The notes under the pieces: generated by a model
Told to the model about the DNA's origin: nothing
Databases searched by the model: none
Seen by the model: the letters and a program-made list of their open reading frames with translations, nothing else
Position numbers and translations under genes: made by a program
Part shown: positions 28,007 to 49,383 of the stretch, in pieces
How positions within the stretch are numbered: position 1 is the stretch's first letter
Layout of the letters: every line of letters begins with the position of its first letter
NCBI RefSeq assembly: GCF_001708405.1
Contig: NZ_CP012418.1
Span: 1,640,501 to 1,704,500 of the forward strand
From: Kangiella sediminilitoris
GTDB lineage: Bacteria; Pseudomonadota; Gammaproteobacteria; Enterobacterales; Kangiellaceae
Direction of reading: 5' to 3'
Length of the DNA stretch: 64,000 nucleotides

Positions 28007-29227
28007 TCAGGATCTTACCTGCATTGATCGTTTGTGCCAAACCAATTGCTCAGCTTCGGCTATTTTTTCACCAATAGATGATAATTCTTTTCTTCCCTGA
28101 TCATGAATTGACTGAACCGATTGTAATTTCATAAAACTTTGAACGCTTAAACCACTGGAGCGGTTAGCCGTTCCCATGGTTGGCAAGGTATGATTAGGTC
28201 CTGAACAATAATCGCCATAGGCTACTGCACTGTTTTCACCAACAAACAGCGAGCCAAAATTAATCAGTCTTCCCTGGTCAATCCTTGTATCCGCCAGTAG
28301 TAAGTGTTCAGCGGCATATTGATTACTAAAGTTCACCATCTCTTCAATCGATTGTGCCAGTAAAAGTACAATCTGATTTTGCTGCAATAACTCAGTTAGA
28401 GCCTCATCGGTTTCCAGTTGCTCTCTTACCTGATTCAACAACGACTGACTATCACTGACCAGTATGCTTTGCGCCTGAGGATCATGTTCTGCCTGAGCCG
28501 CCATATCGGCTATCAGCCACTCCTGATTTACCTCTTCATCAGCCAGTATCAGTAACTCACTGGGACCCGCAGCAACGTCAATTTGAACCCGGTTACTCAG
28601 TAACTGTTTTGCTATGTTTACATACTGATTACCCGGCCCCACAATCATTTGAACAGGGTTAATCTGCTGGTAACCAAAAGCAAGGGCTGCAATTGCCTGG
28701 GCCCCACCTATTTGAATAAACTGAGTAGCCCCTGCAAAACTAGCTGCCGCCAGAACTGCCGGGTGGTCAGATGGAGAGCAGGCAATTCGCTCTCGGCAAC
28801 CAGCCAGCTTTGCAGGAATCAAAGTCATCAGTGCAGTCGATATCAGAGGAAAACGACCTCCCGGGATATAAGCGCCTATACGTTCAATCGGTTGATACCG
28901 AAAACCAAACTCTCCGCACTCATCCAGGTATGTGCTGTCACGCAACTGTTTACGCTGAAATTCGGCAAAAGCTTCTATCCGTTTTCCTGCAGCGACAATG
29001 GCATTTAATAAACCTGTTTCCAGTCCATACTGATCATAAGGCTTCAGCTCTATAAAGCGTGGCGAAAAACCATCAAACCGCTGACTAAGCTCTTCGATGG
29101 CAGGATCACCTTGCTCCACCACTTTATCAAGAAGCTCCCTGACCTGAGGCTCAATATCCGTAGCACTGTTGCTCAGCTCTCTCTGCCACTGGCTGCATGG
29201 CATAAAATCTAGTTGTTTACCCTGCAT
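28007..29227 (-). CDS. hisD: histidinol dehydrogenase
   Basis: A 406-residue NAD-dependent enzyme for the last two histidine steps (histidinol to histidine). It has YIPGGRFPLISTAL, the VGPGNQYV loop, SQAEHD-type text (AAQAEHDPQAQSILV), the catalytic EH pair in AAEHLLL, YGDYCSGPNHTLPT, and a C-terminal HKRS zinc-site histidine. The frame runs on to 29296, but ATG 29227 lies just inside the end of hisAIE (11-base overlap) and gives a normal N terminus. It is the last gene of the his operon. Its GGRFPL loop differs from the E. coli form (GGSAPL). Confidence 0.93.
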   Translation of the reverse strand: MQGKQLDFMPCSQWQRELSNSATDIEPQVRELLDKVVEQGDPAIEELSQRFDGFSPRFIELKPYDQYGLETGLLNAIVAAGKRIEAFAEFQRKQLRDSTYLDECGEFGFRYQPIERIGAYIPGGRFPLISTALMTLIPAKLAGCRERIACSPSDHPAVLAAASFAGATQFIQIGGAQAIAALAFGYQQINPVQMIVGPGNQYVNIAKQLLSNRVQIDVAAGPSELLILADEEVNQEWLIADMAAQAEHDPQAQSILVSDSQSLLNQVREQLETDEALTELLQQNQIVLLLAQSIEEMVNFSNQYAAEHLLLADTRIDQGRLINFGSLFVGENSAVAYGDYCSGPNHTLPTMGTANRSSGLSVQSFMKLQSVQSIHDQGRKELSSIGEKIAEAEQLVWHKRSMQVRS

Positions 29228-30467
29228 TTCGCGCCCCCAATTCACTAATAATTTCCTGGGCTGATACGCCCTTTGCCTTGGCGTTAACCAGAGCAAAGAA
29301 TATTAAGTCTGCCGCTTCCCAGCGAACCTCGTCTGAGTCACTGGCTTCTATCAACTCCTGACACTCTTCGTTCAATTTTTCAATTTGCAGCTTTTCGCTT
29401 GAAAACAGTTTTTGAGTAAAAGACTGCGGGCTTGTAGTAGATTTCAACTCGTCCAGACGTTGCTCAAATACTCGATTGAGAGTGTTCAAATCAAACCCTC
29501 TATCCTGTGTAGCAAAACAGCTGTAACGCTCAAAGTGACAGGCATTACCCGACTGTCTGACCTTGAATAGTAAGGTATCACCATCACAGTCATAATCAAC
29601 ATTTACCAATTCCTGTGTGTTGCCGCTGGTCAAACCCTTCTCCCATAACTCTTGTCGTGAACGACTATAATAGACTCCAGCTTTTCGCTTAAACGCTTCC
29701 CGTAAGGAGTTTTCGCTGGAGTAAGCCAACATCAGCACCTGACTAGTTTCCGCATCCTGTACCACGGTTGGAATCAGTTCAGACTTATTAAAATCCAGAC
29801 ATTGGAACAAGGCATCTTCCAGACTCAATCTGCCAGTATAAACCGACATGCCGATTTGGCTGTTAGCACCAAGCTTATTAATGAACTCTACATCGTCCAG
29901 GGTTGTGATACCGCCCGCAACGGTCACTGGTATTTTTGAAGTTTTAATAACTTGCTCTATACGCTCGCGATCAACGCCTTTAAGCAGGCCTTCTTTTTGT
30001 ACCTGGGTATATAAAAACTCGGAACAATTACTTTGGATTTCACTTATTAAATCGAGCACCTTGACTGTATCGGTTGACTGCCAGCCATGTGTTACCCAGT
30101 CATCGCCTTTGGCATCAATGGCGAATATCAGCTGGGATGCTGGAAGTTTTTTGACGAACTCAGAGCGGCAAGACGTACCCAGAATGACCTTTTTGGCTCC
30201 TGCTGATAAATATTCTCTAGCAGTATCATAGTCCCGTATGCCACCTCCGACACGACATGGATAGCGTTTGATTAACTGTTTGATTAGATCCTTGTTGCTG
30301 CCTCTTCCTAATGCCGCGTCCAAATCAATGATAGCTACTTCGCCATACAACGAAAACTTTTCCAGTAATCCAAAAACATCGGATTCCTCAACAATCTTTC
30401 GATCAGGGTTCCCCTGCTCAAGCTGTACGGCCTTGCCGTCTAATAAATCAATACTTGGAATTAACAT
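29217..30467 (-). CDS. hisAIE: trifunctional HisA-HisI-HisE fusion
   Basis: A 416-residue polypeptide with three enzymes in series. HisA barrel (about 1-225): catalytic D7 in PSIDLLDGKAV, GGGIRDYDTA, D118 in FAIDAKGDDWVTHGW, and VAGGITTLDD. HisI cyclohydrolase (about 230-318): VVQDAETSQVLMLAY, SRSR 268-271, DYDCDGD from 291, CH 310-311 and C317. HisE pyrophosphohydrolase (about 325-412): EECQELIEA and WEAADLIFFALV. Together they would take phosphoribosyl-ATP through three consecutive steps to the substrate of HisHF. Start ATG 30467 has AGGAG upstream. HisI-HisE fusions are common; I do not recall HisA being part of one in gammaproteobacteria. Confidence 0.93.
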   Translation of the reverse strand: MLIPSIDLLDGKAVQLEQGNPDRKIVEESDVFGLLEKFSLYGEVAIIDLDAALGRGSNKDLIKQLIKRYPCRVGGGIRDYDTAREYLSAGAKKVILGTSCRSEFVKKLPASQLIFAIDAKGDDWVTHGWQSTDTVKVLDLISEIQSNCSEFLYTQVQKEGLLKGVDRERIEQVIKTSKIPVTVAGGITTLDDVEFINKLGANSQIGMSVYTGRLSLEDALFQCLDFNKSELIPTVVQDAETSQVLMLAYSSENSLREAFKRKAGVYYSRSRQELWEKGLTSGNTQELVNVDYDCDGDTLLFKVRQSGNACHFERYSCFATQDRGFDLNTLNRVFEQRLDELKSTTSPQSFTQKLFSSEKLQIEKLNEECQELIEASDSDEVRWEAADLIFFALVNAKAKGVSAQEIISELGARNAG

Positions 30468-31857: not shown

Positions 31858-32432
31858 AACATCCCCTTAGTACTGTTCTCACGCTCACTCACCTGTAATG
31901 CGTCACGCAAAGCAAAAGCTAAACCTTTAAAACTGGCTTCTACCAGGTGGTGATTGTTATCGAAATACTCTGTTTTAATGTGCAGAGTTATAGCGCTGTT
32001 GATGGCAAAGGTATAAAAGAAGTGTTTCCACATCTCTGTTCCAATTCCACCCAGCATTTCTCGAGTAAACGGTAAGTCTGTAATGGCATAAGCACGGCCG
32101 CATACGTCAACCGCCACCATTAACAAGCTAGCATCCATTGGTAGTAAGCGCTGACCGTAACGTACAATTTTCCCCTGTTGACGCCAAGCCTGATTAAAAG
32201 CTTGCCCGAGGCAAATAGCGACATCCTCAATTAGGTGATGATCATCAACCTCTAAGTCTCCTACCGATCTTAAATTCAAATCCCAGCCCGCATGAGTAGC
32301 CAGTTGATTAAGCATGTGATCAAAGAACGGTAGCCCCGTATCAATCCTCACACCTTGTTTACCATTGATATTCAATGATAATTGAATTGAGGTTTCCTTG
32401 GTTTTACGCTCTAGCTGTATCGTTTCACTCAT
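31854..32432 (-). CDS. hisB: imidazoleglycerol-phosphate dehydratase (monofunctional HisB)
   Basis: A 192-residue dehydratase with the paired manganese motifs DDHHLIEDVAICLGQAF and NNHHLVEASFKGLAFALRDAL and the GLPFFDHML entry segment. It contains only the dehydratase domain: the N-terminal HAD histidinol-phosphatase found in the bifunctional enteric HisB (about 355 residues) is absent. A HAD phosphatase domain instead sits at the C terminus of the preceding HisC. It overlaps hisC and hisH by 4 bases each. Confidence 0.95.
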   Translation of the reverse strand: MSETIQLERKTKETSIQLSLNINGKQGVRIDTGLPFFDHMLNQLATHAGWDLNLRSVGDLEVDDHHLIEDVAICLGQAFNQAWRQQGKIVRYGQRLLPMDASLLMVAVDVCGRAYAITDLPFTREMLGGIGTEMWKHFFYTFAINSAITLHIKTEYFDNNHHLVEASFKGLAFALRDALQVSERENSTKGML

Positions 32433-34135
32433 AGCAAAGACTCCAATTGATTGACATTGTCGAGCACCAGATCAGCACCACCTTCATACAAAGACTCGTC
32501 GCCAATGCCGATAGCGATCACTCCAGCCCTGTTGGCCGCGACCATATCATCGGGCGTATCACCCAGCATCCAGCCGTTTTCTTTGCCGAAATAACGAAGG
32601 GCTTTAATGATTCCTTCAGGTTCCGGTTTTGATACCTCTACATCGTCGTCACTGATCACAAGACAATTATTGGCTCCTATCATTCTGGCACCTTCTACCG
32701 CCTCGTCTTTTGGCCTACCGGTAACAATTGCGGTCTTAATGGTACGCGTATTAGTGACGAATAACTGTGTAGACAGTTGCCGCTCGATGAATGGTTTCTC
32801 TAATTCTTTTAAACCTTTGTTTTTCTCGCTGCCTTGGTAAAAACTCTGAAAAACGTCAATAACAGCATTAAGATCTGTTTCATAACCAGATTGTTGAACC
32901 AACTCTAAACTCAACACCCAGTCATTGTTAAAGCCACCTTTACTTCTTAGCTTTTCAATATCGGATTGCTCGACCGTTTTGCCAGCAATGTGCTCGACTG
33001 TGGCCTTTATCGCCTGATCATAGCTTTGCCTCGTATCAATAAGCACACCATCCATATCAAAACAGATTAGTTCTGGCTTTAAAGCAAGTCCTAGAGCATT
33101 GAGTAGTGGTTTTAAGTAAAACGGTATCGTGATTCGAATAGCATTGATCTTTTTATCTTTAGCACTCAAACCAGCTAGCTCAGTTTTAATAATGATATTG
33201 CGTTTTTCACAGGCAGCCTTTATTAACCGGAGTTTGTTTTCATTGCCCTGAATGAACAGGAAGTTAGCACTGCTATCAACAACCTTTAAGCCTGCAGATT
33301 TTAACAGCACGACAACTTGCTCACGGTTTTGACTAATCGTTCCTGCATAGTTATTAACTTCCAGCCTGGCACTATCGGTAAATGCTTTCTTTGCTACTTC
33401 AATGGTTGGAGCCGGTAGGTTAAACGGCATCGCCAGACGCGCAAATTCGATGACAATTTTGGATTGGCCCAACAGGTATCCACAACGGATTCCAGCCAGT
33501 CCAAAAGCCTTCGACAAGGTTCTTAATACAATGAGATTATCAAACTCTTCCAGTAGCTTTAGGGAATAATCTTCATCTTTGCACGCAAACTCTATGTAAG
33601 CTTCATCCAGAAAAACCTGTGCATTTTTTTCCTTGGCTTGCTGACAAACTCGATATAACTCATCTTCAGATATAAGTTCGCCTGTGGGATTATTTGGGCT
33701 GGTGATAATTAAGATACTCCCTTCCGAGACCTCACTCAGCGCACCTTGCAAATCAATTCGCATATCATCCAGCGGCTCTATAAGAGTCATGTCCGCACTC
33801 CAAGTGACTTTTCCTGCGAGGTACTGGCTAAAGGCCGGTAACGGTAATATGAGTCGACGTTGTTGCAAACAAGCATATTTAAACAGTAACTCAATGGCTT
33901 CATCACCACCATTGGTTAACAGCAATTGCTCCTTATTCAAACCATAATATTGAGCCACCTGATCTTCTAAGCCAGTTTTGTCAGGGTACTTCCACAAACA
34001 CTCTGTAGAGATGGTTTCCGTGGTCAACCATAATGGACGACTGTCAGAGCGCTCATTAAAGTCCAGTTTAAGTACTTTTCTGCTACCAGCCTCCCCCTGA
34101 TATGCCTCAAAGTTATTCTGATATAAAGGTTTCAT
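32429..34135 (-). CDS. hisC: HisC aminotransferase fused to a HAD phosphatase, candidate histidinol-phosphatase
   Basis: A 568-residue fusion. Residues 1-350 are a PLP-dependent histidinol-phosphate aminotransferase (SPNNPTGELIS, FLDEAYIEF, PLP lysine K209 in RTLSKAFGLAGIR). Residues about 354-568 are a complete HAD subfamily IA phosphatase: D360 and D362 in CFDMDGVLID, T472 in VTGRP, K503 in SKPEP, and GDTPDD from 525. All catalytic residues are intact. Because hisB lacks its phosphatase domain, the inference is that this module dephosphorylates histidinol phosphate, the product of the step after HisC's substrate is aminated. It overlaps hisG and hisB by 4 bases each. Confidence 0.9.
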   Translation of the reverse strand: MKPLYQNNFEAYQGEAGSRKVLKLDFNERSDSRPLWLTTETISTECLWKYPDKTGLEDQVAQYYGLNKEQLLLTNGGDEAIELLFKYACLQQRRLILPLPAFSQYLAGKVTWSADMTLIEPLDDMRIDLQGALSEVSEGSILIITSPNNPTGELISEDELYRVCQQAKEKNAQVFLDEAYIEFACKDEDYSLKLLEEFDNLIVLRTLSKAFGLAGIRCGYLLGQSKIVIEFARLAMPFNLPAPTIEVAKKAFTDSARLEVNNYAGTISQNREQVVVLLKSAGLKVVDSSANFLFIQGNENKLRLIKAACEKRNIIIKTELAGLSAKDKKINAIRITIPFYLKPLLNALGLALKPELICFDMDGVLIDTRQSYDQAIKATVEHIAGKTVEQSDIEKLRSKGGFNNDWVLSLELVQQSGYETDLNAVIDVFQSFYQGSEKNKGLKELEKPFIERQLSTQLFVTNTRTIKTAIVTGRPKDEAVEGARMIGANNCLVISDDDVEVSKPEPEGIIKALRYFGKENGWMLGDTPDDMVAANRAGVIAIGIGDESLYEGGADLVLDNVNQLESLL

Positions 34136-34983
34136 AGCGCTTTCCTGATTGGTGTTTCTAAAATATCTGTGGCGCCGGCAGCAATCAGCTGTGGCAATAA
34201 ATCCTTTATAAGTTTACGTTCGATGGCTGCCTTAATGGCAAAACCGTCCGAGTTATAGAGTTCACTAACCGTGGGAGAACGCATTGCAGGTAAAAGATCT
34301 ACTACTTTCTGTACGTTATCCTTATTGCAATTCATTTCAAGTAGAACCCGTTTACGTCCGTTCATGACACCCCGCATCAGCAGTAGCAAGTCGTCAATCT
34401 GCTTTTTCTTTTCAGGGTTCTTTAAAATTTCTTTGTTAGCTATAAACTGTGTTGAGCTTTCGATAACCGTATCAACAATCTTTAAACGGTTTGCTCTTAT
34501 GGTAGATCCGGTGCTGGTATTATCAATAATCATGTCGGCATCTTCCGGAGGGAAGACTTCTGTGGCACCATAAGCACGCAATAACTTAAATGGAACGCCT
34601 AACCGAGTAAGATAATCATTAGCTATCTTTTTATACTCGGATGCTACAATAATGTTTCGTTGCTTAACTTCATCCCAGTCCCATTCCTCAGGGATACAGG
34701 ACACCAGGCGAACCGGGTTAAATCCAAGATCCATCAAAACTTCAACGTCTGCTTCCTGCTCTATAATCCAGTCCATTCCAGCGAAACCTATATCGTGCTG
34801 CCCAAGCGCTACCATCTCAGGAATATTCTGGCTCTTAAGTAATTTTACTTCGATGTCACAGCCATAAAGCGTCGGACGATAATTACGACTGTCACCCACT
34901 AAAGTTAACCCTATCTCAGAGAGAAGGTCTTCAACCTTATTAAATAACTTCCCTTTTGGAACTACCATTTTTAATGTCATCAC
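34132..34983 (-). CDS. hisG: ATP phosphoribosyltransferase (long form)
   Basis: A 283-residue HisG catalysing the first, feedback-controlled step. Catalytic region: VVPKGKLF, DIGFAGMDWI, and the PRPP-binding loop DNTSTGSTIRAN. After about residue 205 there is a C-terminal HisG_C regulatory domain (MRSPTVSELYNSDGFAIKA, ending ILETPIRKAL), which binds histidine in long-form enzymes and removes the need for HisZ. It is the first structural gene after two tandem attenuators and overlaps hisC by 4 bases. Confidence 0.95.
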   Translation of the reverse strand: MMTLKMVVPKGKLFNKVEDLLSEIGLTLVGDSRNYRPTLYGCDIEVKLLKSQNIPEMVALGQHDIGFAGMDWIIEQEADVEVLMDLGFNPVRLVSCIPEEWDWDEVKQRNIIVASEYKKIANDYLTRLGVPFKLLRAYGATEVFPPEDADMIIDNTSTGSTIRANRLKIVDTVIESSTQFIANKEILKNPEKKKQIDDLLLLMRGVMNGRKRVLLEMNCNKDNVQKVVDLLPAMRSPTVSELYNSDGFAIKAAIERKLIKDLLPQLIAAGATDILETPIRKAL

Positions 34984-35018: not shown

Positions 35019-35052
35019 GAAAAAACCCGTTGACCTTTCGGAGCAACGGGTT
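35019..35052 (-). terminator. his attenuator 2 terminator
   Basis: Nine-base arms 35024-35032 and 35044-35052 (on the minus strand AACCCGTTG and its complement) followed on the minus strand by a run of six U. The minus-strand left arm plus loop (CCGTTGCTC, 35041-35049) is complementary, with one G-U pair, to GAGCGACGG inside the second leader (35097-35105). The RNA can therefore switch between terminator and antiterminator. It lies 36 bases before the hisG start. Confidence 0.9.
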
Positions 35053-35084
35053 TGAAAATCAATCATGAGTATTTTAATTAAGCA

Positions 35085-35153
35085 CTACTCATTCCACCGT
35101 CGCTCGCGCAGTGTATGATGGTGATGATGATGTAATGCTTTACTGAAACTCAT
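35085..35153 (-). CDS. hisL2: his leader peptide 2 with six consecutive histidines
   Basis: A 22-codon ORF starting MSFSKAL, then six histidine codons (CAT CAT CAT CAC CAT CAT), then TLRERRWNE and a TAG stop. It lies just upstream of the second terminator and hisG, on the same strand, as expected for a ribosome-stalling his leader. The segment following the His codons carries the antiterminator strand (35097-35105). AAGG lies about 10 bases before the ATG. It is too short for ordinary gene finding, so it was found by reading the strand. Confidence 0.88.
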   Translation of the reverse strand: MSFSKALHHHHHHTLRERRWNE

Positions 35154-35177
35154 TCTCTAAACCTTTTGTTCAAACAT

Positions 35178-35208
35178 AAAAAAAGCCCCGCTCATTTGGC
35201 GGGGCTTT
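35178..35208 (-). terminator. his attenuator 1 terminator
   Basis: A GC-rich hairpin with perfect 10-base arms 35182-35191 and 35199-35208 (minus strand AAAGCCCCGC and its complement), 7-base loop, followed by a run of seven U. The minus-strand CCGCCAA (35196-35202) is exactly complementary to TTGGCGG within the first leader ORF (35254-35260), which itself can pair with the preceding CCACGCA. This gives the classical 1:2, 2:3 and 3:4 alternatives. Confidence 0.92.
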
Positions 35209-35236
35209 CTATAATTCTTTAATACTACTTACATTA

Positions 35237-35311
35237 TTAAAGACAATAGCTCACCGCCAACGCATTTGCGTGGTAATGATGGTGATGTGTTGCGTTTAAT
35301 AATGTTTTCAT
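35237..35311 (-). CDS. hisL1: his leader peptide 1 (HHHHYH)
   Basis: A 24-codon ORF starting MKTLLNAT, then HHHHYH (CAT CAC CAT CAT TAC CAC), then ANALAVSYCL and a TAA stop. An in-frame stop lies four codons upstream of the ATG, so this is the only sensible start. No Shine-Dalgarno sequence is visible. The best promoter would start transcription about two bases before the ATG, so it may be translated almost leaderless. Its sequence outside the histidines is unlike leader 2. Confidence 0.85.
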   Translation of the reverse strand: MKTLLNATHHHHYHANALAVSYCL

Positions 35312-35319
35312 ATGCTGTG

Positions 35320-35348
35320 ATTAAAACGTATCCAACAAAACCTGTCAA
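35320..35348 (-). promoter_or_regulatory. sigma-70 promoter of the his operon
   Basis: On the minus strand a perfect -35 box TTGACA (35343-35348), a 17-base spacer and -10 box TTTAAT (35320-35325). It is the only strong promoter-like match between the GNAT gene and the first leader. The predicted start near 35313 is two bases from the leader ATG at 35311. Confidence 0.7.
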
Positions 35349-49154: not shown

Positions 49155-49207
49155 TAACCAAAGAGAAGTCCACCCCGACATTGAGGTCATTAAATGACTT
49201 CCTTCAT

Positions 49208-49308
49208 AAAGCCCAAGCCACTTAACGCACCGTGAAATACAGTCCTTCCCTGGCCTGAATTTCACTATTTGAATCATCCAAGATTCAAATTGCTATGCCT
49301 TGGGCTTT
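49208..49308. repeat. three-way-junction (cloverleaf-like) structured element
   Basis: Three nested perfect stems. The closing stem is AAAGCCCAAG (49208-49217) with CTTGGGCTTT (49299-49308). Inside it are stem GTGAAAT/ATTTCAC (49232-49238 with 49259-49265) and stem TTTGAATC/GATTCAAA (49268-49275 with 49282-49289). The region has no ORF. It could be the right part of a mobile repeat or a structured RNA; no promoter or tRNA-like signature is visible. Confidence 0.6.
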
Positions 49309-49383
49309 ACTCAGCTCAATGTAAAGGGTTACATGGAGCAAGCCTAGTTTTCATTTGTAATCATTCAACCTTATAATAAAGTA

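Follow-up and report, generated by a model that had tools for sequence, protein, structure and literature searches.

The hisG gene in the window (the whole stretch of DNA that was analysed, 64 kb from a marine Kangiella) is preceded on the minus strand by two tandem attenuator units, and each unit combines a leader ORF rich in His codons with an antiterminator strand and an intrinsic terminator. This arrangement had been proposed in an earlier note on the same DNA and was confirmed here. We favour, with a probability of about 0.8, the reading that the units are two ribosome-mediated attenuators in series on one transcript, both sensing charged tRNA-His. The same interpretation had been offered in the earlier note, and it is supported by the conservation of both units in all 19 Kangiella hisG loci.

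Anatomy of the region upstream of hisG

The minus-strand interval from the GNAT acetyltransferase gene to hisG carries, in this order, a promoter, leader ORF 1, terminator 1, leader ORF 2 and terminator 2. The opening codons of each leader also have the potential to pair with RNA just past the stop codon of that leader, a pairing here called the guard helix. The features are as follows.

35320 to 35348, minus strand: sigma70-type promoter (TTGACA at 35348-35343, spacer of 17 nt, TTTAAT at 35325-35320; the -10 element ends 8 nt ahead of ATG 1)
35237 to 35311, minus strand: leader ORF 1, MKTLLNATHHHHYHANALAVSYCL and stop codon, His run at 35287-35270; probably leaderless
35295 to 35305, minus strand: unit 1 guard-helix strand in leader 1, ACATTATTAAA, pairing with TTTAATAATGT at 35241-35231, past the stop codon
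35254 to 35260, minus strand: unit 1 antiterminator strand TTGGCGG, complement CCGCCAA at 35202-35196
35231 to 35241, minus strand: unit 1 guard-helix partner strand, TTTAATAATGT
35180 to 35210, minus strand: intrinsic terminator 1, AGAAAGCCCCGC/CAAATGA/GCGGGGCTTTTT
35085 to 35153, minus strand: leader ORF 2, MSFSKALHHHHHHTLRERRWNE and stop codon, His run at 35132-35115
35097 to 35105, minus strand: unit 2 antiterminator strand GAGCGACGG, pairing with CCGTTGCTC at 35049-35041
35064 to 35089, minus strand: unit 2 post-stop stretch, with pairing potential to the leader 2 start region (about 35154-35131)
35023 to 35053, minus strand: intrinsic terminator 2, AAACCCGTTG/CTCCGAAAGGT/CAACGGGTTT and a T run
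34132 to 34980, minus strand: hisG, first gene of the operon, ATG at 34980

The coordinates and complementary segments given in the earlier note proved correct on the minus strand, TTGGCGG being the exact complement of CCGCCAA and GAGCGACGG pairing with CCGTTGCTC through one G-U pair. Bases of the GAG/AGG ribosome-binding type lie immediately 5' of leader ORF 2 in the window. Note that the window promoter and terminator 2 both escaped the consensus scan, which requires an A as the second base of the -10 element and allows loops of up to 8, whereas the terminator 2 loop has 11; both were recovered by scripts with laxer rules. A pattern of six His/Tyr codons with at most one mismatch gave two matches in the 64-kb window against 0.00 expected from 100 shuffles, and the His-codon runs of the two leaders were the only exact pattern matches in the 2.5-Mb genome, where the reversed control pattern gave 0. 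Chance His runs were thus ruled out by the window shuffles and the genome-wide pattern count. The fold of the leader RNA lay 6.6 sd below 100 dinucleotide shuffles (z = -6.6).

Assignment by Pfam gave the operon order hisG-hisC::HAD-hisB-hisH-hisF-hisA::hisIE-hisD, so that the genes are those for biosynthesis of the same amino acid as the regulatory codons of the leaders. Each unit presents the sequence features of a leader-peptide attenuator: a regulatory codon run, a terminator, an antiterminator strand after the codons and a cognate operon. Two proteins of the operon are fusions, both encoded on the minus strand. In a protein of 568 aa (32429-34135), HisC carries a C-terminal HAD-type hydrolase domain, which is perhaps the source of histidinol-phosphatase, and the HisA, HisI and HisE domains form one protein of 416 aa (29217-30467). 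Elsewhere, the sole Rfam match at gathering level within the 64-kb window was a TwoAYGGAY RNA (RF01731) at 49183-49331 on the minus strand, which scored 47.1 bits where the gathering score is 43. Repeated TGTCCATGGATGGAC-like words were seen between the his terminator and hisG in three other loci (L057, L059 and L061) and resemble, by eye, the AYGGAY words behind that family name.

Conservation in Kangiella and occurrence in a second lineage

The genus sample comprised 20 Kangiella genomes, 19 of them with hisG; the genome without it is 55% complete. Both units, leaders and terminators alike, were present at 19/19 hisG loci, with an intrinsic terminator between each leader ORF and hisG. Absence of one leader from all close relatives, which the earlier note had named as refuting its proposal, was clearly not observed. 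The window HisG is 94% identical to that of K. shandongensis, with K. taiwanensis, K. spongicola and K. aquimarina next in order, and HisG identity inside the genus falls to 71%. A strict leader rule (four His in seven codons) found two leaders in 18 of the 19 loci. The exception was L018, whose leader 2 has three His only (HHHQ) and was recovered by eye and by a looser rule; leader 1 of L021 (HHSNHH) was recovered by the strict rule and missed by the looser one. Both leaders thus hold three to six His codons in 19/19 loci, and the third base of these codons varies (54 CAT and 48 CAC in leader 1; 82 CAT and 19 CAC in leader 2).

The genes 5' of leader 1 differ among the species. An acetyltransferase gene was found in L001 and L002, a P-II gene in L014, and ispD within 38-96 nt of leader 1 in L003-L007 and L015-L018, while none of the five tested genes was found upstream of leader 1 in L021. 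Since the upstream genes change and unit 1 stays, unit 1 belongs with hisG and not with the preceding gene, and terminator 1 was ruled out as the end of an upstream gene. The earlier note had argued that the duplication is not very recent, and this stands, since the paired units are at least as old as the genus. Alignment of unit 1 with unit 2 beat shuffles in 8/8 loci tried, a result that shows neither descent nor non-descent because His codons are common to both units, as are GC stems and T runs.

The terminator stems were paired in 98.4% of alignment cells, with seven cells (one column pair, in terminator 2) changed on both sides, and 0/500 shuffles scored as high. In the antiterminators 95.0% of cells were paired, against 32-56% when the strands were slid, and no column pair had changed on both sides. 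The columns are nearly invariant, which explains the missing covariation, and column covariation speaks neither for nor against antiterminator pairing.

An order control was assembled from 100 hisG upstream regions of about 600 nt each from 99 non-Kangiella genomes. One His leader was present in 94/100 of these, none in 6/100 and two in 0/100, and Pleionea- and Aliikangiella-type loci likewise had one leader (11/11 non-Kangiella loci among L001-L030). Beyond the order, the survey of upstream regions was confined to 80 named-genome loci, with 23 repeated contigs (L031-L049, L052-L054, L086) counted once. HisG was present in 92 of 114 genomes of the class, and in a draw of 369 such genomes the window's own HisG was the only one to pass the set limit. 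Two units were also detected in 13/21 non-Kangiella loci of one HisG clade, namely 11 Marinicella-type loci (L060, L062, L065, L066, L069, L070, L071, L072, L076, L077 and L080), a gammaproteobacterial MAG (L058) and a Lysobacterales MAG (L064). The HisG tree, built without L082, L087 (61% identity, one leader) and L088-L110, placed all 32 tandem loci, including 19/19 from Kangiella, within one 40-row clade (SH-aLRT 99), and the same clade had bootstrap 100 and SH-aLRT 99 when four far rows (L083-L085 and L075) were removed. Two loci (L057 and L068) were scored as having no unit, and the 'single' call for L078 is unsure, with only 225 nt of upstream sequence. The distribution of tandem and single loci requires at least five changes on this tree, against a mean of 19-21 after shuffling, with 0/500 as low. 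One gain and four losses would fit this distribution, and repeated gains would also be compatible with it.

The remaining 8/21 non-Kangiella clade members have one unit only, with a leader like unit 1. The single leader peptides of L056, L063 and L067 are similar to that of unit 1 in the closest tandem relatives, with hisG coming immediately afterwards, which on our reading makes unit 2 look like a module that has been gained and lost. The single-unit members, together with the three-His leader 2 of L018, could also mean that one unit alone works and that the other is the decaying remnant of a duplication. Against this, ORF, His run, antiterminator and terminator are all kept in 19/19 Kangiella loci despite HisG identity as low as 71%, and the terminators change on both sides. 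A relic is consequently considered highly improbable.

Promoter position, pairing and a proposed mechanism

In 30 of the 31 tandem loci examined (L076 has too little upstream sequence), a sigma70-type promoter with 9-11 matches out of 12 was found whose -10 element ends 6-8 nt before ATG 1, the exception being L015 with 7/12. Promoter scores at single loci, covered for 27/32 loci, often fell within the shuffle range, and it is the constant position that is telling. RNA polymerase starts about 6-8 nt past the -10 element, and leader 1 is therefore probably leaderless, as predicted from the spacing between the -10 element and the ATG. In the order control, a 9/12 promoter lay within 100 nt of 25/94 single leaders, at distances of 5-68 nt, and only 3/25 were at 4-10 nt. 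A set of 24 single-leader loci closer to Kangiella included 13 with a 9/12 promoter, and 9/13 of these promoters ended 7 nt before the ATG used. Given the 7-nt spacing in these nine loci, the leaderless first leader probably predates the tandem and is broader than it. The promoter ends 7 nt before the leader ATG in the single-unit family relatives L019, L020, L022, L023, L027 and L028; for L020 the spacing holds for a more upstream in-frame ATG.

A second promoter between the units would generate a second transcript meeting unit 2 alone, so that the two would be used in parallel; a transcript start between the leaders was the other outcome that the earlier note had named as refuting its proposal. 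A promoter-like match of 9/12 between stop 1 and ATG 2 was indeed present in L004, L006, L069 and L071, but these matches are scattered and 27/31 tandem loci have none, and the scans found no conserved internal promoter. Moreover, in 6/19 Kangiella loci terminator 1 and ATG 2 are separated by only 25-29 nt, which is too short for a promoter clear of terminator 1. Parallel use is for these reasons judged decidedly unlikely.

The strength and specificity of the antiterminators were assessed in all 32 tandem loci. The duplex equalled or surpassed 95% of shuffles in strength at 29/32 loci for unit 1 and 30/32 for unit 2, and the mean energies were -15.2 (unit 1) and -18.4 (unit 2) kcal/mol with a unit's own terminator, against -12.4 and -12.0 kcal/mol with that of the other unit. 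When partners were exchanged between 11 hand-made groups, the own pairing of the unit 2 antiterminator beat the swaps in 11/11 groups. The test was weak for the unit 1 antiterminator, the own partner winning in 6/11 groups and 520/870 comparisons. The register of the unit 1 antiterminator shifts together with the terminator in L013-L015 (GGCGGGG) and in L021 (TGGGGCT), each form being matched to another stretch of the terminator arm in its own unit.

The sequence of the guard helix differs by Kangiella subgroup with pairing kept, as GATTATTTT/AAAATAATC in L013-L015 and as ACAGTAA with TTACTGT in L009 and L011, and the subgroups are not aligned in a common register at this helix. Its pairing was position-specific, beating the swaps in 719/870 comparisons for unit 1 (10/11 groups) and 618/870 for unit 2 (9/11 groups). 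Measured against shuffles, it reached the 5% level or better in 14/32 loci for unit 1 and 11/32 for unit 2, and in a number of Marinicella loci, for example L060, L069 and L066 unit 2, it was weak or missing. The guard helix encloses the antiterminator strand, and the two are therefore not easily formed together. A possible role, with support mainly from Kangiella, is that of a default-off guard, under which 'no ribosome' would mean 'terminate'. The likely leaderless start of leader 1, the helices joining leader start and post-stop RNA, and the second lineage in Marinicella had all been missed by the earlier note.

It could be that only one unit responds to charged tRNA-His and that the other answers mainly to a second signal, for instance the state of translation initiation or the Arg and Trp codons of leader 2 (RERRW). 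The start modes do differ: the -10 spacing described above places leader 1 next to its promoter, and leader 2 has GAG/AGG bases 5' of its start in 14/19 Kangiella loci (by reading). Leaderless starts use 70S ribosomes. A precedent for tandem attenuators with different signals exists in the Salmonella mgtCBR leader, as described in PMC3641672. However, both leaders retain their His codons throughout Kangiella, and the Arg codons sit inside the antiterminator strand, where stalling would presumably cover the strand and not free it; this position also explains Arg codon identity by pairing. Two different signals are thus regarded as unlikely.

The preferred reading, two histidine attenuators in series, would operate as follows. 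The transcript would begin no more than about two bases from the ATG of leader 1, and leader 1 would be translated as a leaderless message. With histidine plentiful, the ribosome would reach the stop codon and cover or release the antiterminator strand; the helix between leader start and post-stop RNA would then close, and terminator 1 would end transcription. Were the ribosome instead to stall at the His codons, the strand that follows these codons would pair with the 5' side of the terminator 1 stem, allowing the polymerase to pass. At unit 2 a second ribosome, with its own start site, would have to stall too before hisG was reached. The start site, the alternative folding in the cell and the use of both units in series are what we infer from the sequences.

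If the stages are assumed to be independent, readthrough would be the product of two probabilities, so that leak falls and log-sensitivities add. In an illustrative race model with self-chosen parameters and independence assumed, readthrough at full supply went from 2.2% to 0.047% and the log-sensitivity doubled. The doubling would thus be expected to give low leak and a steeper response to charged tRNA-His. A fuller version would make the region a two-stage AND gate, in which the start codon of a leaderless first stage is locked by the guard helix after one decision and a separately initiated second stage follows, two independent ribosomes having to stall for lack of His-tRNA; it would have arisen once in the Kangiella/Marinicella his lineage, with the second stage later lost in some members. 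We consider the odds on this fuller version to be even.

Relation to known systems

Attenuation is a textbook mechanism, and a theoretical treatment of its sensitivity in single attenuators is given in PMC1183508. A natural doubling of one sensor would make that theory testable, in that leak and sensitivity either do or do not combine as a two-stage product, and single-unit relatives (Pleionea, Aliikangiella and some Marinicella) provide natural controls. Unit 1, if truly leaderless, would exemplify leaderless translation that serves a clear regulatory function in Gammaproteobacteria. The earlier note knew of no described tandem his attenuator, and searches of an open-access library brought up none either; neither same-amino-acid tandem leader-peptide attenuators nor a Kangiella his attenuator were recognised among the papers listed there.

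The classical his attenuator of Escherichia and Salmonella (hisL; RF00514) shares with Kangiella the His-codon leader, the antiterminator, the intrinsic terminator and the position directly before hisG, but it is one unit, has a ribosome-binding site and starts its transcript far 5' of the leader ATG, whereas Kangiella has two units. Matches of the Kangiella units to the Rfam His_leader model RF00514 (28.3 and 24.5 bits) were below its gathering score of 49. Four order controls scored 74.9-114.4 bits with this model, and six Kangiella, Marinicella and family loci were below the cut-off. The best sub-threshold Rfam match of unit 1 was Trp_leader RF00513, at 32.6 against 41.

The tandem attenuators of Salmonella mgtCBR (mgtM and mgtP) respond to ATP and proline, are reported to act independently and additively, and are termed 'a singular example' in the source (PMC3641672). 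They share with Kangiella the presence of two short ORFs in one leader, each within an attenuator. By sequence, however, Kangiella does not belong to this class of different signals, since both of its leaders carry His codon runs. The rimP leader of several Gammaproteobacteria is reported to have a second terminator in tandem (PMC2965389); like Kangiella it combines two terminators in series with antiterminator potential, but as described there it has no leader peptide and its sensor is unknown.

In Corynebacterium glutamicum ilvBNC, the start site is described as one base from the leader start codon, and H1, a hairpin that covers the start region, prevents initiation while sparing the terminator (PMC11857589). 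The role of H1 is like that proposed for the Kangiella guard helix, although ilvBNC has one unit, responds to branched-chain amino acids and belongs to Actinobacteria. Tandem (double) T-boxes of Firmicutes, including those of histidine transporter operons in five Enterococcus species, place two copies of one amino-acid sensor before one operon, as in Kangiella, and it has been suggested that the two copies might cooperate to sharpen the response (PMC9413887). T-boxes bind uncharged tRNA directly, whereas sensing in Kangiella would rely on two translating ribosomes. Taken singly, each Kangiella unit is an ordinary leader-peptide attenuator in kind.
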